A stretch of 35,196 nucleotides of DNA. It comes from Halovivax asiaticus JCM 14624. GTDB lineage: Archaea > Halobacteriota > Halobacteria > Halobacteriales > Natrialbaceae. How positions within the stretch are numbered: position 1 is the stretch's first letter; the number at the start of each line of letters is the position of its first letter. The stretch spans positions 1-35,196 of the forward strand of contig NZ_AOIQ01000007.1 in assembly GCF_000337515.1 (NCBI RefSeq), given 5' to 3'. Of the stretch, positions 1 to 16,653 are shown piece after piece. The notes below the pieces were generated by a model that had not been told where the DNA came from, made no database searches, and saw only the letters and a list, made by a program, of their open reading frames with translations. Made by a program: the position numbers and the translations under genes.

Positions 1-37
1 CCTTGCCAGCCCGCTCAGAGATGTGTATAAGAGACAG
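1..37. other. Sequencing-library adapter (not genomic)
   Basis: Positions 19-37 read AGATGTGTATAAGAGACAG, the 19-base Tn5 mosaic end used in Nextera libraries. The 18 bases before it match the tail of the Roche 454 Titanium B-type primer used in early Nextera kits. Read on the minus strand, the adapter adds the foreign residues VSYTHL to the end of HutH; read on the plus strand it gives the peptide MCIRDS. Both are familiar adapter-derived peptides. Genomic sequence starts at 38. Confidence 0.97.
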
Positions 38-1577
38 CGCCGGTGCCGACGCCGTGAGTCAGGGCGTCGTCGACGTACTCGGCCGCCTCGGCGGCCGCAC
101 AGAGCTCCGTCGCGACGACGTGGCGGGCGTTCGCGAGCGCTGTCCGAGCGTGATCGGCTGCCTGGGCGCTCATGCTGACGTGATCCTCCTGACCGCCGGA
201 GACGGGTGTGTTGTCCGTCGCGGCGCGACCCAGCGAGCGGTTCTCGTTGACCAGCGACGCGGCGGTGTACTGGGCGATCATGTAGCCCGACTCGACGCCA
301 CTCTCGGTCGCCAAGAACGGTGGGAGGTGGTCCTCCTGGAGGTTCGGGTTCAGGAGGCGGTCGACCCGTCGCTCGCTGATAGCGGCGAGTTCGGTCAGCG
401 CCGCCGTGATGTAGTCGAGTCGGAGCGCGAGCGGTTCGCCGTGGAAGTTGCCGCCGGAGAGGACCGCCGCTCGATCCGTCCCGCTCGCACGTGGATCGGC
501 ATCGTCGGCGTCGAAGACGAGCGGGTTGTCCGTCGCGCTGTTGAGTTCGATCGCGACGGCTTCGCGGAGGTGGGCCACGGCCTCGCGAACCGCGCCGTGG
601 ACCTGCGGGAGACACCGCAGCGAGTAGGCGTCCTGCACCCGATCGCAGTTCCGGTGGGACTCGACGATCTCGGAATCGGCGGTCAGTGACCGGATTCGCT
701 CGGCACTCTCGCGGTGGCCCGAGTGGGGGCGAACCTCGGACAGCACGGGGTGGGAGGGAACCGTGGATCCCATCGTCACCTCCGTCGTGAGTGCGCCGGC
801 CGCGTCGGCCGCCTCGACGACGCGTTCGGCGTCGACGACGAGCAACGCCGCCAGGCCGACGGTGAGTTGCGTGCCGTTGATCATCGCCAGCCCCTCCTTC
901 GGGGCGAGCGACAGCGGGTCGAGCCCCGCGGTCGCGAGCGCCTCGTCACCCGGGAGCCGCCGACGGTCTGTCGCTGGGACGTCGGCTCGGTCGGTGGCCG
1001 CGCCCGAATCGCGGCCATCGGTCGCCCCATCGCTCTGGTCGACGATTGCCTCGCCCTCGCCGATGAGCACGAGCGCCATGTGCGAAAGCGGCGCGAGGTC
1101 GCCGCTAGCGCCGAGGCTACCCCGGGACCGGACGACCGGGTGGATCCCCTCGTTCAGCATCGTCACGAGGTGGTCGACGACGATCGGGCGGACGCCGGAG
1201 TGGCCCTTCGCGAGGGCGTTCAACCGGGTGACCAACATTGCGCGCACGGCCTCGCGACCGAGTTCCTCGCCGGCGCCAGAGGCGTGACTCCGCAGCAGGT
1301 TGTGCTGGAGTCGTGCGAGTTCGTCGGGTTCGATCCGCTCGTCGACGAGTTCGCCGAACCCGGTGTTGACGCCGTAAACTGGCTCGCCCGAGGCGACGAC
1401 GTCCTCGATGCGCTCGCGCGCGGTCTCGACGTTCGCCATCGCCTCGTCCGTCAGTTCGACGGGCGCGCCGAGTCTGGCGACGCGTTCGACGTCGGCTGGC
1501 GTGAGTGTCTCGCCGTCGACGCGAACGGGGTCGTCGGCGCCCGTCGTCTGCCGGGTCCGCTCGGTGGGCTCACCCAT
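38..1577 (-). CDS. hutH: Histidine ammonia-lyase, 3' end missing
   Basis: First enzyme of histidine degradation: removes ammonia from L-histidine to give urocanate in the cytoplasm. The Ala-Ser-Gly triad that cyclises to the MIO prosthetic group is at residues 157-159 within RGSLGASGDLAPLSH. The YGVNTGFG motif (68-75), the PKEGLAMINGTQ segment and the QEDHVSMS region are also present. A hydrophilic insertion of roughly 25 Asp/Ala/Thr-rich residues follows GEGEAIV, between the MIO segment and LPGDEAL, where bacterial HutH is short. Start is the ATG at 1577, overlapping the hutI stop by 8 bases, so this is the last gene of the hutUGIH operon. Only 513 genomic codons are seen; the adapter replaces the stop. 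Compared with family length (about 510-530 residues), few residues should be missing. Function is very sure. Confidence 0.96.
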
Positions 1578-2832
1578 GGACGCGCTCGCCTCCCTTGAGG
1601 ACGGTGTCGACGCGATTCACGCCGAAGCTGTAGGGAACGTGGACGTAACTCGGCGCGTCAAGTACGAGCAGATCGCCGGGAGCGCCGGGCCGGATCGTTC
1701 CGCTGTCTGTGGGAACGCCGCTCGCTCCACCGTCGCCGGCGTCGAGTGCTCGCGCGCCGCCGCGGGTGGCCGCTGTAAGCGCGGCTTCGGGGGTCATCTT
1801 CATCTTCGCACAGGCCAGCGCGACGGTAAACCCCATCGACTGTGCGTGGCAGTTAGGGTTGAAGTCGGAGGCCAGCGCGACGGTCGCACCCGCCTCGCGG
1901 AACTGCGCCGGATCGGCGTACTCCGTGTCGAGCGAGAACGCCGCCGCGGGAAGCAGGGTCGCCACCACGTCGGCCTCGGCGAGCGCCGCGGCGTCCTCGT
2001 CCGTCGCGCGCAGGAGGTGATCGGCGCTGACGGCCCCGACGTCCGCCCCAATCTGGGCGCCGCCGGTGCGGGCGAACTCCTCGGCGTGAATCTTCGGGGA
2101 AAGTCCGTGTTCGCGACCCGCTTCCAGAATCCGGCGGCTCTGTTCCGGTGTGAACACGTCTTCCTCGCAGAAGACGTCGCAAAAGGTCGCGATGCCCTGG
2201 TCGGCGACGGCCGGGAGTTGCTCGTCGATCACGCGCTGTGTGTATCCAGCCGCATCCTCGCCTTCCGGAACCGCGTGAGCCCCCATGAACGTCGGAACCA
2301 CGTCGACCGGATGTGACTCGCCCGCCCGGTCGATAGCCGCGAGCAGGCGAAGCTCCGTCTCGCGGTCGAGCCCGTAGCCGGATTTGACCTCGATCGTCGT
2401 CGTGCCGTGTTCGAGAGCCGCATCGAGCTGGGCCGTCAGGTTCGCGACGAGTTCGTCGTCGCTCGCCTCGCGAACGGCGCGAACGGTTCGGAGGATGCCG
2501 CCACCCTCGGCGAGGATCTCCTGGTAGTCGGCCCCACGAAGCCGGGCGGCGAACTCGTCGGAGCGATCGCCGGCGAAGACGCTGTGGGTGTGTGAGTCGA
2601 CGAAGCCGGGGATCACGCTCTGGCCAGTGGCGTCGACGGCCGTCCCGGCGTTCGCCGGCGGATACTCACGCGTCACCTCGTCCGTGGGCCCGACGGCGGC
2701 CACCGACCCGTCGACGATCGCGACGGCGGCGTCCTCGTACCGTTCGAGGGTCACGCCCGTGCCGGTGGCGTCCGAGTCCGGACCGACGACGATTTCCGCG
2801 GTGTCGTGGACGACCGCGTCGAGCTCAGACAC
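1570..2832 (-). CDS. hutI: Imidazolonepropionase
   Basis: Hydrolyses 4-imidazolone-5-propionate to N-formimidoyl-L-glutamate, the third step of the Hut pathway. The protein is an amidohydrolase-superfamily TIM barrel. The metal-binding HTH lies at residues 81-83 ([15 protein letters not shown]), followed by a [15 protein letters not shown] substrate loop, the [12 protein letters not shown] histidine and the [14 protein letters not shown] segment. I place the start at GTG 2832 ([10 protein letters not shown]), giving 420 residues, the usual HutI length. The frame stays open up to 3012, but that extra stretch lies inside hutG and is Arg/Ser/Pro-rich shadow sequence. A GGGGGTGAGG purine-rich Shine-Dalgarno-like run sits just before this GTG. 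The gene overlaps the hutG stop by 8 bases and the hutH start by 8 bases, indicating translational coupling. Confidence 0.95.
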
Positions 2833-3817
2833 GGGCCTCACCCCCGGCACCGTAGCCGGCGAGGGCGTGCGCGACCGTCCGCGCGGCCGCCCGCGCCGTC
2901 CGAGTACCGTCGTCCAGGCCGGGCGCGCACTCGACGACCTCGAACCCGGCGAGACGGTCGTCGTCGCAGGCTTCTCGCACGCACGCGAAGAGTTCGCGTG
3001 CGGTGAGGCCACCGGGCGTCGGCGCGCTGACCCCCGGGGCCGCCGGCGCGTCGAGGACGTCCAGGTCGACGCTGACGTAGAGATGGTCGACGCCGGAGAG
3101 CGTCCGCAACGCCCGGTCGAGCGCCGCGTCGCGATCCTCGCCGACGGCCTCCGCGGTCACCACCGCACCGCCTTCGCTCTGGAGCCACTCGACGTACGTC
3201 GTCGACGTCTCGAAGTGGCGTGCACCGACGACGGCGTAGGCGTCGAGGCCGCGGTCGTGTAACTGCCGGTAGGGCGTCCCGGAAGACGGCCCGTCCGCGG
3301 GCTCGCGCACGTCGAGGTGAGCGTCGAAGTTGAGGACGCCGACCGACCCCGACTCGAGGAGGGGCGCGACGTTCGGGACGGTGAGCGAGTTGTCGCCGCC
3401 GAGGAAGACGGGCAAGGCGTCGGTCGCGTGGAGGCCGGCGGTCACCGACTCGGTGAGTGCCTGGACGTCGCCGACGTCTGCTTGATCGTCGAGGTCGACC
3501 GTGTCGGTCGGCCACGCGACGTCGCCAAGGTCCCCCATGCGCCCGACGGGGCCCGCGTCGACGTGATGCGTCTTGACGCCGGCCAGCGCCTCGCGAATCG
3601 CACCGGGCCCCTCACGAGCTCCGCGCCGGCCGATGACGGCGCCGTCGTAGGGCTCGCCGAGGAGGACGGCGTCGAACTCGCCTGCGGTCGTCACGTCCGC
3701 CGGTGTGCCCGCCGCGTCCAGGGTCGCGGACTCGATCACGTCGCCGAACGTCTCGTCGTTCGGATCGCTCGCCGGCGACTCCCAGGCCGGTGGGGCCGAA
3801 ATCGTGGCTTCGGCCAT
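2825..3817 (-). CDS. hutG: Formimidoylglutamase (ureohydrolase family)
   Basis: Hydrolyses N-formimidoyl-L-glutamate to glutamate plus formamide, the last Hut step. It belongs to the arginase/agmatinase/formiminoglutamase fold with a dinuclear manganese centre. Visible motifs are NFDAHLD at residues 163-169 and [10 protein letters not shown] at 249-258, which supply the Asp/His metal ligands. The first motif, normally GG(D/G)H, reads GGDNS at 140-144, so the expected metal-ligand histidine is an asparagine at 143. The length of 330 residues fits the family. Start is the ATG at 3817, sharing one base with the hutU stop (TGATG). Its place between hutU and hutI supports HutG rather than agmatinase or arginase. 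The His-to-Asn change may be a normal variant of this subgroup; I could not compare sequences. Confidence 0.92.
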
Positions 3818-5553
3818 CAGTCATCACCTCGGTCGCGCATGGGGATCGCGACGTCCGACTCGCGAGCGGTGTCGAGAGCCTTCTCGTAGCCCGCGTCGGC
3901 GTGGCGGATCACGCCCATCCCGGGGTCCGTCGTGAACACGCGCTTTGCGGTCTCGGCCGCCTGCTCCGTCCCGTCGAGGACGACGTGGTTGTTCGTGTGC
4001 AGGGCGTTGCCGATGCCGACGCCGCCCCCGTCGTGGACAGAGACGATGTCCGCACCTGCCGCGCAGTTGAGTAGCGCGTTCAGGATCGGCCAGTCGGCCA
4101 CGGCGTCGGTGCCGTCGCGCATGGCCTCGGTCTCGCGGTTGGGACTCGCGACGGAGCCGGCGTCCAGGTGATCGCGGGTGACGACGATCGGCGCTGCGAT
4201 CTCGCCCTCGCGGACGAGGTCGTTGATCCGCAGGGCGAACCTGGCGCGCTCGGTGAGTCCGTCGTCGTCGGTGGAGTACCCCAGCCAGCACACCCGCGAT
4301 GGCAGTCCCTGGAACTGCACCTGCTCCTGAGCGAGTTCGATCCAGCGCCGGAGCGAGTCCTTCTCGGGGAACAGATCGAGGACGGCCTCGTCCGTGCGGA
4401 AGATGTCCTCGGGATCACCTGAGAGTGCGGCCCAGCGGAAGGGGCCGCGGCCCTCGCAGAACTGCGGGCGGATGTACGCCGGGACGAAGCCGGGGAAGTC
4501 GAACGCCGTTTCCATCCCGCGTTCGTCTTGCACCTGGCCGCGAATGTTGTTCCCGTACTCGAACGCGATCGCGCCGCGATCCTGCAGGTCGAGGATGGCC
4601 TGGACGTGCCGTTCCATCGTGTCGATGCTCTCAGCGACGTAGCGGTCCGGGTCCTCGTCGCGGAGCGTGTCGGCCTCGGCGACGGTGTACCCCGACGGAT
4701 AGTAGCCCTCGAGCGCGTCGTGCGCGCTCGTCTGGTCGGTGACGATGTCGGGCACGAACTCACGTTCGAGCATCGCTTCGAGCATGTCTGCGGCGTTCAC
4801 GTGGACGCCGACGCTGTACGATTCGCCCGCCGCGGCGGCCGCCTCGGCGCGCTCGATGGCTTCGTCGAGGTCGTCGGTCTTCTCCTGGCAGTAGCCCGTC
4901 TCGATCCGGCGGTCGATGCGCTCCTCGTCGACCTCCGCCGCGATACAGACGCCGCCGTTCATGGTGACGGCCAGTGGCTGGGCGCCGCCCATCCCGCCGA
5001 GTCCGCCGGTGACGACGATGCGGCCCTCGAGATCCGTCTCGTCGTACTCTGCGCGTGCGAGCGCGGCGAGCGTCTCGTAGGTTCCCTGGATGATCCCCTG
5101 CGTGCCGATGTACGCCCACGACCCCGCGGTCATCTGGCCGTACATGATCTTCCCCTCGGCCTCGAGTTCGTGGAAGTGCTCCCAGTCGTCCCACTTCCCC
5201 ACGAGATTCGAGTTGGCGATCAGTACCCGCGGCGCGCGTTCGTGGGTCCGAAAGCGACCGACGGGTTTGCCGCTCTGGACGAGCAGGGTCTCGTCGTCCG
5301 CGAGATCGCGCAGTTCCTCGACGATGGCGTCGTAGGCGTCCCAGTTCCGGGCCGCGCTCCCGGTCCCGCCGTAGACGACGAGTTCCTCGGGTTTCTCAGC
5401 CACCTCGGGATCGAGGTTGTTGTTGAGCATTCGGAGGGCGGCCTCCTGACGCCACCCCTCGCACTCGAGCTCGGTGCCAGTCGACGCACCCTGGTACGCC
5501 CGCCAGGTGTCGCTTGGCTCACCACGGTCGAACGACTTGGAAGCGTCCTGCAT
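3817..5553 (-). CDS. hutU: Urocanate hydratase
   Basis: Second Hut step: converts urocanate to 4-imidazolone-5-propionate using tightly bound NAD+ as an electrophile. The NAD-binding glycine-rich stretch [10 protein letters not shown] is at residues 183-192. The conserved [11 protein letters not shown] and [15 protein letters not shown] segments lie toward the C-terminus, and the N-terminal [10 protein letters not shown] and [12 protein letters not shown] blocks are intact. The ATG at 5553 gives 578 residues, close to the usual 550-580. The open frame continues upstream to 5898, but those codons overlap the divergent regulator gene and are not urocanase-like. This is the first gene of the minus-strand hutUGIH operon. 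Its promoter must lie in the 84-base gap before the regulator; a weak T-rich box (about 5576-5582 on the minus strand) sits some 25 bases upstream. Confidence 0.97.
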
Positions 5554-5637
5554 ACCTGTCTCTCGACCGCGTCCGTCAAAACGTCTCACCCCACCGCACG
5601 GAGGTGGGTTGAAGTATATCCGGGACGAGTCGTCTGC
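5554..5637. promoter_or_regulatory. Divergent hutU / regulator promoter
   Basis: This 84-base gap separates hutU (minus) from the Bat-type regulator (plus). On the plus strand GTATAT at about 5614-5619 lies 19-24 bases before the regulator ATG, as expected for a TATA box of a leaderless or near-leaderless transcript. For hutU only a weak TTTT-containing box is visible. The dyad at 5590-5608 lies between the two cores. Confidence 0.6.
5590..5608. repeat. Inverted repeat, possible hut operator
   Basis: CCCACC and GGTGGG are perfect 6-base inverted arms around the 7-base spacer GCACGGA. The dyad is the only clear symmetric element in the divergent promoter and would be well placed for a dimeric regulator acting on both genes. 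A role as operator is inference. Confidence 0.45.
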
Positions 5638-6288
5638 ATGCACGAAGCGACGTTCCGCCTCGAACCCGCCGGCCCGTACGGCGAGTCGACGGCCGGGACC
5701 GACACCACTGTCGCACTCTGGTGTAACGACCACGCGGATCTGCTCTCGATCCGCGGCGACGCTAGCGCCGTCCTCGCGGCCGTCGACGAGCGAGTCGGCG
5801 TCAGCGATCGAATCGACCGTGGCGATCGAACCCTGGCCGTTACTGCGGACTGCCTCGGCGAGGAGGGTGGCACTGTGGATCGCTCTCTCCGGCGGCATGG
5901 GTGTCTCCTCGTCCCGCCGCTACGGTACGAACGCGGGACCAAGCTCGTCCGGGTACTCGCCCTCGACCCGGGAGATCTCACGGCGCTCTACCGCGATCTC
6001 GTCGACGAGAGTTCGGTCACCGTCGAAGCGAAGCGCTCGTTCGACCAGCCGGACGCGGGTGAAGACCGGGGGCAGTCCCCGTTCGACGCGGCGCCGACGC
6101 TGTCACCACGGCAACGGGAAGCGCTCACGATCGCCCACGAACGCGGCTATTACGAGCGACCGCGCGAGGTGACCGCCGAGGCCATCGGGGAAGATCTGGA
6201 CGTCACCCGTCGGACGGCCGCCGAACATCTCCGACGCGCCGAGCAGAAAGTGATCGACGCGTACGTCGAGCGGTCGGCGCACCGGTAA
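5638..6288 (+). CDS. Bat-type HTH-10 regulator, probable Hut regulator
   Basis: Predicted DNA-binding transcription factor of 216 residues in the haloarchaeal bacterio-opsin-activator (Bat) style. The N-terminal two thirds form a sensing region that I cannot assign to a named ligand domain. The C-terminal HTH_10 domain runs from [25 protein letters not shown] through the recognition part [20 protein letters not shown] (about residues 155-210). The ATG at 5638 is chosen because a TATA-like GTATAT lies about 20 bases upstream and the region beyond it belongs to hutU. Transcription is divergent from hutUGIH, so local control of histidine catabolism is the best guess. Whether it activates or represses, and its ligand, are unknown. 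Confidence 0.85.
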
Positions 6289-11031: not shown

Positions 11032-12381
11032 TCACGCGGCGTCGTCCGGCCACGTCATGATGGTATCGAAGTTACCTGGGGGAATCGGCCCGTCGAGAAG
11101 GGGATCGTCGGTCTCGACCATCCAGGTGTGGAGTCGATCGGCGAGTTCACGTCGGCGGTCCTCGTACCGAGGCTCGTTCGCCACGTTGTCCACCTCGGTC
11201 GGGCCCTCGTGGAGGTCGTAGAGTTCTTCGAACGGGCGAATCGGGACGGCGTAGGCCTCGCGAACTTCGCGCCCGGACTCGCTCGCGAAGACGTCTCTCG
11301 GAAGGTACACCCGCGGGAGGTACCAGAAGTTGCGGATGTACTTGAATCGATCAGTCCGAACGGCGCGAATCGGGTTGTACATGTCGTGCCAGGTCATCTC
11401 GAGGAAGAGTTCCTCGCGGTGGTCGTCCTCCCCACCGCTGAGCAGCGGTCGAAAGCTCCGGCCGTTGACCGCAGTCGGCAGTGGGACGTCGAGCAGATCG
11501 AGCAGCGTCGGGGTGACGTCGACGTTGCTGACCAACTCGTCGAACTCGCGACCGCCGCTCGCCAGTTCGGGGTGGGACATGATCAGCGCGGCTTCGACCC
11601 CGGGATCGTAACACGTCCCTTTCGCACGGGGGAACGCGATGCCGTGTTCGGTTGTGAAGACGACGAGCGTTTCCTCGTCGAGGCCGGTCTCGTCGAGGCA
11701 CGTCCGAATGCGGCCGATGGCGTCGTCGATCGCGTAGACCATGCCGTGCATCTCAGAGAGGTCCTGCCTGATCCCACGGCGATCCGGAAGGTACGAAAGC
11801 GGGCCGACATCGTCGGGGTCGTCGGCGTCGTACCGGTCGCGCTCGAAGCCATACCGACCGTTTGCCTCTTCGACCCGGTGCAGTTCGAAGAAGCCCACCG
11901 ACGCGAAAAACGGTGCGTCGAACGCACGCTTCTCGAGGAACGTCGTCACGACGTCGGTCACGTTCACGGCCCGGTTGACCTGGTGGACGCTGGGCGAGAC
12001 GCCCGGGTACAGATTCCCCTCGGAGTGGACGTACTCGTATCCCAGCCGGTCGGTGTCCTGCGTGATGTGCTGGAGCCCGAAGAGGTGAGTTTCGTAGCCA
12101 GCCTCGGCGAGGTACTGGGGCAGGATGCGTTCGTCGTCGTCCAGCTCCCACTCCCCGTGAGCGAGCCCCATGAGGCCGTTGACGTGCGGATAGCACCCGG
12201 TCATGAGACTGCCACGACTGGGCGAACACTGCGGCGCCGTCCCGAAGTGATTCTCGAATCGAACGCCCGCCGCCGCGAGCGCGTCGACGTTCGGCGTCTC
12301 GATCGGAGCCCCGTAGCAGCCGAGATGCTGGCCGAGATCGTGGCAGTGGATCAAGAGGACGTTCGGCGTCGCCGTTGCCAT
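11032..12381 (-). CDS. Sulfatase (N-sulfoglucosamine sulfohydrolase-like)
   Basis: Type I sulfatase, expected to hydrolyse a sulfate ester or sulfamate on a sugar. The CSPSRGSLMTG motif at residues 52-62 carries Cys52, to be converted to formylglycine. The context APQCSPSR...GCYPHVNGLMGLAHG resembles heparan N-sulfatases more than arylsulfatases. VVFTTEHGIAFPRAKGTCYDPG provides the second metal and sulfate-binding part. In the first metal motif the usual Asp-Asp pair reads HD (HCHDLGQ, residues 12-18). ATG 12381 gives 449 residues; the extra open frame up to 12558 is not sulfatase-like. No signal peptide is seen, so the enzyme may be cytoplasmic. No formylglycine-generating enzyme or polysaccharide gene cluster lies nearby. 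Confidence 0.9.
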   Translation of the reverse strand: MATATPNVLLIHCHDLGQHLGCYGAPIETPNVDALAAAGVRFENHFGTAPQCSPSRGSLMTGCYPHVNGLMGLAHGEWELDDDERILPQYLAEAGYETHLFGLQHITQDTDRLGYEYVHSEGNLYPGVSPSVHQVNRAVNVTDVVTTFLEKRAFDAPFFASVGFFELHRVEEANGRYGFERDRYDADDPDDVGPLSYLPDRRGIRQDLSEMHGMVYAIDDAIGRIRTCLDETGLDEETLVVFTTEHGIAFPRAKGTCYDPGVEAALIMSHPELASGGREFDELVSNVDVTPTLLDLLDVPLPTAVNGRSFRPLLSGGEDDHREELFLEMTWHDMYNPIRAVRTDRFKYIRNFWYLPRVYLPRDVFASESGREVREAYAVPIRPFEELYDLHEGPTEVDNVANEPRYEDRRRELADRLHTWMVETDDPLLDGPIPPGNFDTIMTWPDDAA

Positions 12382-12591
12382 ACGCGGCGAACCACGACTG
12401 CCGGCAAAACTGTTGGCTCGCCTCGCCGAACGTGAGCCGACTTCGGACCCGCGGTGGCCATCATCAGTCTGACGCGGACAGCCGGTTGGGACTCGACGAG
12501 GGGGATTCCCCCCAGTCGCGAGGCAGACCGAATCGGTGGTCCGGGACGCTACTGTCACCTATGTACTCGACCGAGGCAGTATTTTTCGAAC

Positions 12592-12610
12592 GTATACAAC
12601 ATATAAAATA
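12592..12610 (+). promoter_or_regulatory. Promoter of the PhoD-like phosphatase gene
   Basis: GTATAC (12592-12597) and ATATAAAATA (12601-12610) form a strong AT-rich TATA region. With the usual 25-27 base spacing, transcription would start at about 12620-12632. That is downstream of the ATG at 12613 and upstream of the ATG at 12646, so this element decides the start codon below. Confidence 0.65.
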
Positions 12611-12645
12611 CCATGAATGACAGCGGTGCACGGTTCATCGCAGCA

Positions 12646-14745
12646 ATGACAGCTACCGATGCACCCGAACGACCTGAATCGAACGCGGACAACCGACGAC
12701 AGTTCTTACAGGCACTCGGCCTGACCGCGACCGCCGCAGGGCTGGTCCAGACTGCAGCCGCGGACACGGACGACGACACCATCGTCGAAACGGAGGCAGC
12801 CGGGCTCGTTCCGCTGACCCACGGCGTCGCCAGCGGTGACGTGACCGACTCGACGGCCGTGGTGTGGGGACGGGCAGACGGCAACGCGACGATTCAAGCT
12901 GTCTGCGTCCCGAAAAACGGTGATGGCGGCGTCGGGACGGCACGAACGAGCGTCGACGAGACGACGGACTTCACCGGCCACCTCGAGATAACCGATCTCG
13001 CCTCCGCGACCGACTACCGGTACATCGTGGTGGCGACGAAGGCAGACACGGCTCCCGAATCGCTCGACGGAGCCGATACCGAGACGGTCCGCCGCGTCTG
13101 GCGAGAGCGTGAGGGGCGAACACAGACCGCTGGGATCGAAACCGGGACCTTCCGGACGGCGCCAGCACCCGACGAAGCGGAGCCAGTCCGGTTCGCCTGG
13201 AGCGGCGACACGTGGGGCTACGGTGACGATCCCATCGAGCCGCCGTTTCCCGGCCTGCAGACGATCGCCGAGCAGGCGCCCGACTTCTTCCTCTATCACG
13301 GCGACACGATCTACGCCGACGCACAGACGCCGGCCGGCAAGATTACGGAGGACACACCGATCGACGACTCGCTGGCGATCTACCGCGAGAAGTACAAGGA
13401 GATGCGGGTCCCGCCGGCCGAGATCGCCGAGCGGACGAACCTGAAAGAACTCCTCCGGACGACCTCGGTCTACACGGTCTGGGACGACCACGAGGTGATC
13501 AACAACTTCGCCGGACCGATCGAACCGTTGATGCCGGACGGAAGGCGGGCGTTCCGCGAGTACTGGCCGCTCGACCGTGATGACGAGGCAGCCCCCGGCA
13601 CGTCGAACCGGTTCTACGACTCGTTCCGGTGGGGGAAACACCTCGAACTGTTCATCATCGATACGCGCCAGTACCGCGATCCGAACGTCGACTTAGACGC
13701 CAAGTCGCTGCTCGGTGACGAACAACTCGCCTGGCTGAAGGACGCGCTTGCCGGCTCCGACGCGACCTGGAAAGTGCTCGCATCCCCGGCACCGCTCGGG
13801 TACCCGTCGGATTCGTGGGCGACGCCGTCGGACAAGACCGGGTACGAGTCGGAACTCCTGGACCTGCTCGAATTCGTCCAGAGCGAGGAGATCGACAATC
13901 TGGTCACGATCGCCGGCGACGTGCACAAGTCCGTCGTGGGCGGGTACGATCCGGACGACGACGGTACCTACGAGTTCGTCGAGGGGATCGCCGGCCCGCT
14001 CGGCGCACCGTCCGGTGTGCCGGACGACCTCTACGCGCCGCTCAACCCGACCGAGTTCTTCGCGAAGGGCGAGTACACCAACTTCGGCGCCGTGGAGGTC
14101 GACGAGTCTGGCGAGACGCTCACCATCACCATCTACGCCGACGACGGCACCGAGCAGTTCGCGAAAACCGTCCACACGGACGACATCGACCCCAGTCGCC
14201 CCGACCGTGACCGGATCGAGAGCACGTTCGACGACGGCCCGGATGGCTGGCTCGTCTCGCAAAACGGTGGCAGCGACCACCCCGCACACCGGACGACGGG
14301 CGGCAACCCCGGCGGCCACATCACCGAAGCGGAAAATCAGGGCGGCATCGCGTGGTACTATCAGGCGCCGTTCAAATTCCTCGGCGATCGCGAAGCCTTC
14401 TACGGCGGGACCCTCTCGTTCGACTGCAAGCAGGCGGAGATCGACTGGCAGTTCGACGCACACCCGATGGAGGGCGGGGACGTGTTGCTCGCGAGCGGAG
14501 AGACCAAACTCGTCTACGAGTTTCGCGGAACCGGCAGTAATCCCGGAACCGAGTGGACCACGTTCGACGCACCCCTCACTGCGGAGGCCGGCTGGATCGA
14601 TCTGACCAGCCACGATCCGTTCGCGACCGAGGAGACGTTCCGCGACGTTCTGGCCAATCTCGACACCCTCCGCATCCGTGGCGAGTATCGCTCCGGTGAC
14701 GACCGCAGTTTCCTCGACAACGTCGTCCTCAGGAAAGCGGACTGA
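12646..14745 (+). CDS. phoD: Secreted PhoD-like alkaline phosphatase with laminin-IV-like domain
   Basis: Exported phosphoesterase, likely releasing phosphate from organic phosphates outside the cell. The twin-arginine signal is at residues 17-32 (RRQFLQALGLTATAAG). A fibronectin-like PhoD N-domain spans about 50-172 and the PhoD metallophosphatase domain about 180-510, with SGDTW (186-190), HGDTIYAD (218-225), WDDHE (279-283) and AGDVHKS (423-429). Residues about 527-696 form an extra beta-rich domain (FDDGPDGW to FLDNVVL) resembling laminin IV/B domains, which would suit surface or matrix attachment. The chosen ATG yields 699 residues. ATG 12613 would add 11 residues but lies before the predicted transcription start. 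No PHO-type operator is recognised. The PhoD assignment is sure; the laminin-like call is from pattern. Confidence 0.9.
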   Translation: MTATDAPERPESNADNRRQFLQALGLTATAAGLVQTAAADTDDDTIVETEAAGLVPLTHGVASGDVTDSTAVVWGRADGNATIQAVCVPKNGDGGVGTARTSVDETTDFTGHLEITDLASATDYRYIVVATKADTAPESLDGADTETVRRVWREREGRTQTAGIETGTFRTAPAPDEAEPVRFAWSGDTWGYGDDPIEPPFPGLQTIAEQAPDFFLYHGDTIYADAQTPAGKITEDTPIDDSLAIYREKYKEMRVPPAEIAERTNLKELLRTTSVYTVWDDHEVINNFAGPIEPLMPDGRRAFREYWPLDRDDEAAPGTSNRFYDSFRWGKHLELFIIDTRQYRDPNVDLDAKSLLGDEQLAWLKDALAGSDATWKVLASPAPLGYPSDSWATPSDKTGYESELLDLLEFVQSEEIDNLVTIAGDVHKSVVGGYDPDDDGTYEFVEGIAGPLGAPSGVPDDLYAPLNPTEFFAKGEYTNFGAVEVDESGETLTITIYADDGTEQFAKTVHTDDIDPSRPDRDRIESTFDDGPDGWLVSQNGGSDHPAHRTTGGNPGGHITEAENQGGIAWYYQAPFKFLGDREAFYGGTLSFDCKQAEIDWQFDAHPMEGGDVLLASGETKLVYEFRGTGSNPGTEWTTFDAPLTAEAGWIDLTSHDPFATEETFRDVLANLDTLRIRGEYRSGDDRSFLDNVVLRKAD

Positions 14746-15020: not shown

Positions 15021-15839
15021 TCACACCGCGAGTCGGTCGGCGAGTGACGCAGCCTGGTCGGTGAGTTGCGTCGTCGTCTCCGATGCTGTCTCTAAGTGCG
15101 ACGTGATCGCACGATACAGGTCGGCGGTATCGAGTTCGCCGGTCGCGTCCCGCCACCGCTCGGCCGTTCGAGCGGGTTCCCCACACGCTGGACAGGGGTC
15201 GCCGTCGAGGATCGACTCCAGGCAGACGTGGCAGCGTCCTTCCACGGAGACGGCGGTCTCGACGAGGTCGAGAACCGTTCGAAGCTGGTGCTGGAGAGCC
15301 ATCGCGGTGGTCAGGACATTTTCGAACGCCTCCACGGTGGGCTGGCCGAGATCCGTGTTGGCCAGGACGAGTTCGGAGACGAGGTGTTCGACCGCCGACG
15401 AATCGAAGTCCAGCGGGTCGAGTGCGGACCGCTCGACGCCGGCAGCCGCCAGGTGGCGGTCGACGACGGCCAAGCCGAGAGCGCTCCGTCGCCGCCCGTC
15501 GCGGTACTCGCGACGGACATCGGCATCGTCGAGCCCGCCGGTCGTCTCGGTCGCGAGCGCCGCAACGTCCGCGACTACGCTCCCCTGGGTCTTCGTTACG
15601 GTCCGGAGGAACGCCATCCCCCCAGCGGCAGGGTCGGCAGCCAGGCGATCTCGCCACGCCGGGGTCGCCCCGTCGAGGAGTGCCGCACAGTCGGCACAGA
15701 CGGTCACCATTTCGGCCCCGCTGTGGCGTTCGCCGGCATCCCAGACGGACGCATCGGGATCGCGATCGGCCGTCAGGGCCGCGTCGCAGTTGACGCACCG
15801 GCGCCCGTCACGGTCGAGGACGTCGATCGGGTCAGTCAC
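15021..15839 (-). CDS. HNH-like zinc protein
   Basis: A 272-residue protein with two zinc modules joined by a helical middle. The N-terminus (VLDRDGRRCVNCDAAL, then VTVCADCAALLDG) has the cysteine frame of HNH nucleases, CxxC...CxxC. The central histidine motif is poor (ERHSGAEMV), so nuclease activity is doubtful. A second module CHVCLESILDGDPCPACG lies at about residues 200-217. The helical rest contains a VAEL/AFEN-like region with no match I recognise. GTG 15839 (VTDPIDVLDRDG) is taken as start because the domain begins there; the frame is open to 16100 but that part overlaps the next gene. It lies downstream of, and on the same strand as, the DUF547 gene, 106 bases away. Confidence 0.72.
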   Translation of the reverse strand: MTDPIDVLDRDGRRCVNCDAALTADRDPDASVWDAGERHSGAEMVTVCADCAALLDGATPAWRDRLAADPAAGGMAFLRTVTKTQGSVVADVAALATETTGGLDDADVRREYRDGRRRSALGLAVVDRHLAAAGVERSALDPLDFDSSAVEHLVSELVLANTDLGQPTVEAFENVLTTAMALQHQLRTVLDLVETAVSVEGRCHVCLESILDGDPCPACGEPARTAERWRDATGELDTADLYRAITSHLETASETTTQLTDQAASLADRLAV

Positions 15840-15945
15840 GACCGTCTCGATACGGGCAGTCGCGAAAAACGTTCGGATCGGACGGCAACCGGCAGTCGCG
15901 CGACGGGAGTCGCTGTGGTCGTAAACCGGTGCAGGGACGTTCTCC

Positions 15946-16653
15946 TCAAGAGCGACGTGCATCCACCGTCCAGTCGTGCTGGGCGTACTCGATCGCGACT
16001 GATGGGGTGGGAAGCATATCGTACCGGGCGAGAAAGTCCCGGATGCCGTCGAGGCCGCCGAAGTCCCCGCGATACCGTCGAAAGAGGCGAGGGATTGCAA
16101 CGAGGTCGCGCTCGGGGTCGTACGTCACAGTCTCCGCGAGGAACCACTCGGTGGCGACGTCGAGTTCGTCGTCGACGTCCGGCGGCGAGTAGATCGTTAC
16201 CGGCGGAGCGTGCTCGCCAGCGCCGGAGAGGGCGAAGTGAACGCGCGGCTCACACGCGGCCAGTCGAAACCGCCGTTCGAAGGACGAAGGAAACAATCGC
16301 GGCACGTACCCCCAACCCCATCGCGCCCGGGAGTGGCGAAGCATCCCGTCGCGAACGTCGTTGAGACACAGACTGGTTCCCGCTATCTCGAATCGATCGC
16401 GGGAGAAGAACGCCCAGCGATCGAACCGTGAACCGCTCAGTTGCGCGCCGTGGTCTTCGATGAGGAGCTGGACGAACGCGTTGAAGACGTTGAGCCAGAA
16501 CGCGAGCCGTCGCGGCCGGGTCGAGAGCGACCGCTCTAGCCGGTCGGGATCGAGGCCGGCGAGCTGGGACCGAAGCGCAGTCGATTCGCGGTCCGTCTTC
16601 ACCGAGTACAGCAGGTCGGCGGAGACGGAGAGCGGATCGAGCTGGGTCGACAT
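15946..16653 (-). CDS. DUF547 family protein
   Basis: A 235-residue protein of unknown function with the DUF547 pattern: RRLAFWLNVFNAFVQLLI (about 47-64), SLCLNDVRDGMLR, and EPRVHFALSGAGEHAPPVTIYSP (about 132-154), followed by a FLARYDMLP ending. In family members I know, the HFAL segment is followed by one or two cysteines before PP (NCGAKSCPP type). Here they are replaced (SGAGEHAPP), so any cysteine-dependent chemistry would be lost. The ATG at 16653 is clear and the start fits the family. There is no signal peptide or membrane segment. The neighbour downstream is the HNH-like zinc protein; a functional link is unknown. Confidence 0.82.
   Translation of the reverse strand: MSTQLDPLSVSADLLYSVKTDRESTALRSQLAGLDPDRLERSLSTRPRRLAFWLNVFNAFVQLLIEDHGAQLSGSRFDRWAFFSRDRFEIAGTSLCLNDVRDGMLRHSRARWGWGYVPRLFPSSFERRFRLAACEPRVHFALSGAGEHAPPVTIYSPPDVDDELDVATEWFLAETVTYDPERDLVAIPRLFRRYRGDFGGLDGIRDFLARYDMLPTPSVAIEYAQHDWTVDARRS

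Follow-up and report, generated by a model that had tools for sequence, protein, structure and literature searches.

The phosphatase gene at positions 12646..14745 (forward strand) of the window, by which we mean the whole 35,196-nucleotide stretch of Halovivax asiaticus DNA that was analysed, is an open reading frame of 699 amino acids plus a stop. It raises the question of why a PhoD-family enzyme that is probably exported should end in a domain of the kind found in laminins. The original prediction, made from the letters alone, was that a laminin-IV-like domain follows the PhoD domain and probably fixes the phosphatase to the cell surface, to S-layer glycoprotein or to extracellular polymer.

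A laminin IV domain follows the PhoD catalytic domain

The protein contains a PhoD_N domain (residues 59-132, 12820..13041, forward strand; Pfam, 6.4e-08) and a PhoD catalytic domain (residues 200-488, 13243..14109, forward strand; Pfam PF09423, 1e-47), with a PF09423 score of 163.4 bits against a curated cut-off of 27. The Asp/Asn metal-ligand motifs GDxxY, WDDHExxNN and GDVH are all present, as GDTIYAD (residues 219-225), WDDHEVINN (279-287) and GDVH (424-427). A variable short linker of about 12 amino acids (residues 513-524, 14182..14217, forward strand) leads into the tail, residues 525-699 (14218..14742, forward strand). Sequence matches of the whole protein in the PDB are to Bacillus subtilis PhoD (2yeq, 3e-14) and, weakly, to perlecan in its laminin IV region (E 0.28).

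The tail is a laminin IV domain in both sequence and fold. The Pfam Laminin_B model (PF00052, cut-off 22.4 bits) matches residues 571-698 of the whole protein (3.3e-15, 56.6 bits) and gives 60.5 bits with the isolated tail, as had been expected; in a control, 0 of 14 genomes exceeded the cut-off, and three had matches at E<=10. The domain starts N-terminal to Pfam's residue 571, at about residue 525 (F528...GW535), so that the boundary first proposed (527-699) was correct. An AlphaFold2 model of residues 523-699, built from 16 sequences, has a mean pLDDT of 87.5 and a pTM of 0.87, and Foldseek puts perlecan laminin IV and laminin alpha-2 L4b at the head of its matches. Structural alignment with VIA-align gives Z 19.3 for perlecan (9i5a_A; rmsd 2.8, 160 aligned) and Z 17.7 for laminin alpha-2 (4yep_A; rmsd 2.6, 160 aligned), followed by a mannanase with a CBM (Z 13.6) and then, at about 10.5-12, by CBM22, CBM30, CBM11, MAM-bearing and other entries. 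CBM4 and MAM/reelin-type domains are also among the fold matches, and several solved CBMs (Z 10.5-13.6) score lower than laminin IV. Two independent lines exclude a chance match, an HMM score well above the cut-off and a confident tail model that ranks laminin IV first; neither an ordinary PhoD C-domain nor a non-laminin fold was found. The model of the full-length protein (pLDDT 47.6) is too poor to read domain packing. Two further features of the tail are its charge, with 31 D+E versus 13 K+R in 175 residues, and a clade-specific insertion, xPxEGG (about residues 606-611), which is missing or unshared in other aligned Laminin_B domains.

Predicted export and the C-terminus

A second in-frame ATG lies upstream, at 12613, but ATG 12646 is the likelier translation start, because a TATA-like sequence, ATATAAAAT, read from the sequence at 12601..12609 (forward strand), occupies the position about 36 bp upstream of it. 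Counted from this start, the protein has a putative Tat-type signal, NRRQFLQ (residues 16-22), with a short run of hydrophobic residues reaching about residue 40 (12691..12765, forward strand), in line with the Tat-type signal that had been foreseen. All 10 aligned orthologues keep the twin Arg, and the Pfam TAT_signal match (residues 16-33) is weak, scoring 15.1 bits where the cut-off is 22.7. Hydropathy peaks at residue 20 with no Cys nearby, and since Cys 87 and Cys 594 are the only two in the protein, there is no lipobox Cys. We found no second strongly hydrophobic segment (maximum 19-residue mean hydropathy beyond residue 60, 0.69), no C-terminal hydrophobic segment of the TM-anchor type by hydropathy and, judged by eye, no PGF-CTERM-like end on the last residues. 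Any attachment would therefore have to be non-covalent.

A metal site that differs from canonical PhoD

According to PMC4223295, B. subtilis PhoD binds Fe via Cys-180 and the C180A mutant loses activity, the Asp/Asn residues of the WDDHE..NN motif are metal ligands, and purple acid phosphatases have an Asp at the position of the PhoD Cys. In the excerpt of PMC13318637, PhoD appears only within a reference table of query enzymes.

The Cys is missing in the fusion protein, which has SGDTWGY (residues 186-192, 13201..13221, forward strand) at this position. It is missing too in all fused and GD-type tail-less relatives that were aligned, haloarchaeal and bacterial, where W-[ST]-G-D-T or a related G/A-D motif replaces it. 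The Cys is kept in 17 of 17 aligned canonical haloarchaeal PhoDs and was found by motif in six further canonical loci (L091, L093-L097), the survey of L068-L097 having excluded L078 and L082-L084. One of these Cys-type enzymes is encoded in this same genome (C17:155319-156422, L094). Among the relatives, the other ligand motifs are largely retained: the second N of WDDHE..NN is D in L049, L057 and L058, and at the GDVH site of tail-less rows GD becomes AD or the motif is changed otherwise. Asp188 is probably a substitute metal ligand, a reading made by motif, as in the MAFFT alignment Asp188 is displaced by one residue from the column of the Cys. By HMM the fusion protein is thus a member of the PhoD family, though outside the Cys-ligand type.

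Single origin and constraint on the tail

Our tree of 42 catalytic domains included 23 fused rows and 10 Cys-type rows from canonical loci L068-L097; 10 of those 30 loci (L078, L082-L084, L091, L093-L097) had no phmmer match, and L087-L089 and L099 were dropped as duplicates of L060-L062. All 23 fused rows fall into one clade (support 100/99, 100% of bootstraps), whose sisters, at 44-46% identity, are the tail-less haloarchaeal proteins L057 and L058, in a tree where long branches join the GD and Cys groups. This topology indicates that the fusion arose once and was retained across a whole group of haloarchaea. Tail-less GD-type relatives terminate 2-32 amino acids past the catalytic domain, so the tail was gained by, or lost from, a complete enzyme; the more economical of the two is a gain in the ancestor of the fused clade.

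Mean pairwise identity among the 23 fused rows is 0.85 in the catalytic domain, 0.77 in the tail, 0.57 in PhoD_N and 0.51 in the linker. In four pairs, dN/dS is 0.13, 0.11, 0.16 and 0.08 for the tail and 0.15, 0.09, 0.16 and 0.09 for the catalytic domain. The tail is thus on a par with the catalytic domain in this measure, under purifying selection and functionally constrained.

Distribution of the fusion and of its modules

PhoD-laminin IV is an established architecture within Halobacteria. Of 391 Halobacteria genomes, 21 have Laminin_B, with 23 matches in all, 20 of which, in 19 genomes, are PhoD fusions; the other three (L002, L021, L023) come from two genomes. Every one of the 20 fusion frames scores at least 631 bits with phmmer against the catalytic domain and has a Laminin_B-like tail, and Pfam confirms the fusion in eight of them, the window protein included. 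PhoD of any type, tallied per genome and not per copy, is present in 103 of the 391 genomes. The fusion had been called unusual for PhoD. This holds outside Halobacteria, as, among 85 plasmid records that match PhoD, six have the tail and all six are haloarchaeal, but not within Halobacteria, where 19 of the 103 genomes with PhoD have it. A scan of genome contigs with the tail gave 14 loci, comprising nine haloarchaeal PhoD fusions and five bacterial proteins that lack PhoD. Laminin_B is rare in the bacterial samples (3 of 289 and 6 of 296 genomes), and a PhoD motif was found in 0 of 17 bacterial Laminin_B ORF stretches with 1.5-kb flanks, several of these loci being one gene.

Within haloarchaea the fusion is patchy, present in two of the five listed genomes of the same genus, and it is plasmid-borne in Natronococcus, Haladaptatus and Halomarina. 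Because of this patchy occurrence and plasmid location, its history is consistent with gene transfer or loss. Two members of the fusion group, WP_252491028.1 and WP_276275021.1, are publicly annotated as alkaline phosphatase D family protein, product names that omit the laminin tail, and the open-access paper listings that we searched showed no report of a PhoD-laminin IV fusion. PF00052 in Rhizobium etli papers was taken as a gene name and set aside; the word 'laminin' does not occur in one of them, PMC3188799.

Laminin_B is also found on other exported prokaryotic proteins, with RTX repeats (L034, L035), Por_Secre_tail (L033) or PEP-CTERM (L037), and at the C-terminus of a haloarchaeal SipW-dependent-type protein (L105:2266-4044, reverse strand; TIGR04088, 29.3 bits, cut-off 19). 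In bacteria, the SipW-dependent-type class includes biofilm fibre subunits. At the L105 locus, two adjoining ORFs share a similar N-terminus with this protein. The survey of PhoD architectures that had been proposed turned up further tails besides laminin IV: in 10 canonical haloarchaeal PhoD C-termini scanned, three have LTD (lamin-tail) and one has Dockerin_1 (these four being L068, L070, L076 and L071). The ends of L079, L085 and L086 look dockerin-like by eye, without a Pfam match.

Gene neighbourhood

Divergent from the phosphatase gene is a sulfatase with an SGSH_C-type C-terminus (11032-12558, reverse strand). We rejected it as a conserved operon partner, since it is nearby in 0 of 9 fusion loci. 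When phoD and 10 neighbouring genes of the window were searched by tblastn against the nine loci L024-L032, phoD alone matched. A gene of about 114-119 amino acids recurs just downstream of the fusion in L024-L026, L028-L030 and L032, in Natrinema, Halopiger, Natrialba and Haloterrigena; we take it to be possibly BsuPI-like. Elsewhere in the window, positions 15-5898 (reverse strand) hold an apparent histidine-utilisation cluster, with urocanase confirmed by Pfam and ammonia-lyase, imidazolonepropionase and arginase-like ORFs recognized by eye. A 359-amino-acid ORF at 15021-16100 (reverse strand) has Cys pairs (CVNC...CADC) and matches no Pfam family at 0.001.

Possible roles of the tail

We hypothesize, with moderate confidence, that the protein is an exported GD-type PhoD phosphatase/phosphodiesterase in which the laminin IV domain is a non-catalytic binding module that retains the enzyme at the surface or matrix. 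After Tat-type export and signal cleavage, the enzyme would free phosphate from extracellular phosphoesters, and the jelly-roll tail would bind a surface or matrix glycan or glycoprotein non-covalently, the candidate ligands being S-layer glycoprotein, exopolysaccharide or a matrix fibre. Retention of this kind would keep both enzyme and product close to the cell. We favour it because the next-best matches of the laminin IV fold are CBMs and MAM/reelin-type domains, because laminin IV sits on exported proteins elsewhere (RTX, Por_Secre_tail, PEP-CTERM, SipW-dependent-type), and because haloarchaeal PhoDs repeatedly carry other C-terminal accessory modules. That the tail is a clean add-on, with tail-less relatives ending shortly after the catalytic domain, and that it is constrained (dN/dS 0.08-0.16 versus 0.09-0.16 for the catalytic domain, tail identity 0.77) also argue for retention. 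On the other side, a shared laminin IV fold by itself shows no function, no covalent anchor was found in the protein, and no neighbour gene in the nine loci L024-L032 points to a surface or matrix role. Near-catalytic conservation and a linker of about 12 amino acids would equally fit intimate packing of the tail against the enzyme.

Such packing is the basis of a second explanation, in which the tail packs over the active site as a lid or substrate clamp and sets the substrate range. B. subtilis PhoD provides a precedent, as its C-terminal extension, a helix, caps the active site and contacts phosphate (PMC4223295), and the xPxEGG insertion, specific to this clade among the aligned Laminin_B domains, could be read in the same way as the short linker and the conservation. 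However, the tail-less sister enzymes stop at the same point with no substitute lid, Laminin_B is also present on proteins that lack PhoD, and the linker sequence is variable, all of which make a lid unlikely. We consider it more unlikely still that the tail stabilises the fold or mediates dimerisation in high salt and binds no external ligand. The acidity of the tail, its beta-sandwich fold and its conservation would suit this role, but other haloarchaea have GD-type PhoDs with no tail (L057-L062), and haloarchaeal proteins are acidic in general. Least probable of these is direct binding of the tail to a polymeric substrate, such as phosphorylated polysaccharide or extracellular DNA, so that the enzyme would degrade polymers as CBM-bearing glycosidases do: PhoD enzymes can act on specialised polymer or lipid substrates (PMC4223295) and CBM11, CBM22, CBM30 and CBM4 are among the fold matches, but any sugar site is conjectural and the CBM Z scores are clearly below those of laminin IV.

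Returning to retention at the surface or matrix, a wider version of it is that haloarchaea use laminin IV modules as a matrix address tag and that the fused phosphatase lives inside the matrix. We regard this as a long shot, suggested because laminin IV sits on SipW-dependent-type secreted proteins and on the phosphatase clade alike; if true, it would be a prokaryotic parallel to the laminin IV modules of animal basement membranes. The role of the laminin IV domain is unclear in animals as well, and the fusion offers a defined archaeal family of single origin, whose enzyme acquired a laminin-type module that strong selection has since maintained.

Comparison with known systems

The laminin IV (L4) domains of laminin alpha-2 (4yep) and perlecan (9i5a) share fold and sequence family with the tail (Z 17.7-19.3). 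The tail is only 15-20% identical to them, lacks the flanking laminin EGF-like repeats and sits on a prokaryotic enzyme. With B. subtilis PhoD (2yeq), the fusion has in common PhoD_N and the catalytic domain, the GDxxY/WDDHEVxNN/GDVH motifs and, putatively, a Tat-type signal, but it has SGDTWGY where canonical PhoD has ASCQ, and a laminin IV tail where PhoD has either a capping helix or no extension. Purple acid phosphatases resemble the fusion in having GD at the first metal motif, whereas the fusion is of the PhoD family by HMM and has the WDDHE..NN motif. The LTD and dockerin PhoDs of haloarchaea (L068, L070, L076, L071) are like the fusion in having a C-terminal accessory module, and differ from it in their Cys-type catalytic domain, their separate clade and the module itself. 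Haloarchaeal PhoDs comprise two metal-site types and have acquired differing C-terminal modules, which bears on how phosphate scavenging and dependence on iron are predicted for hypersaline systems.
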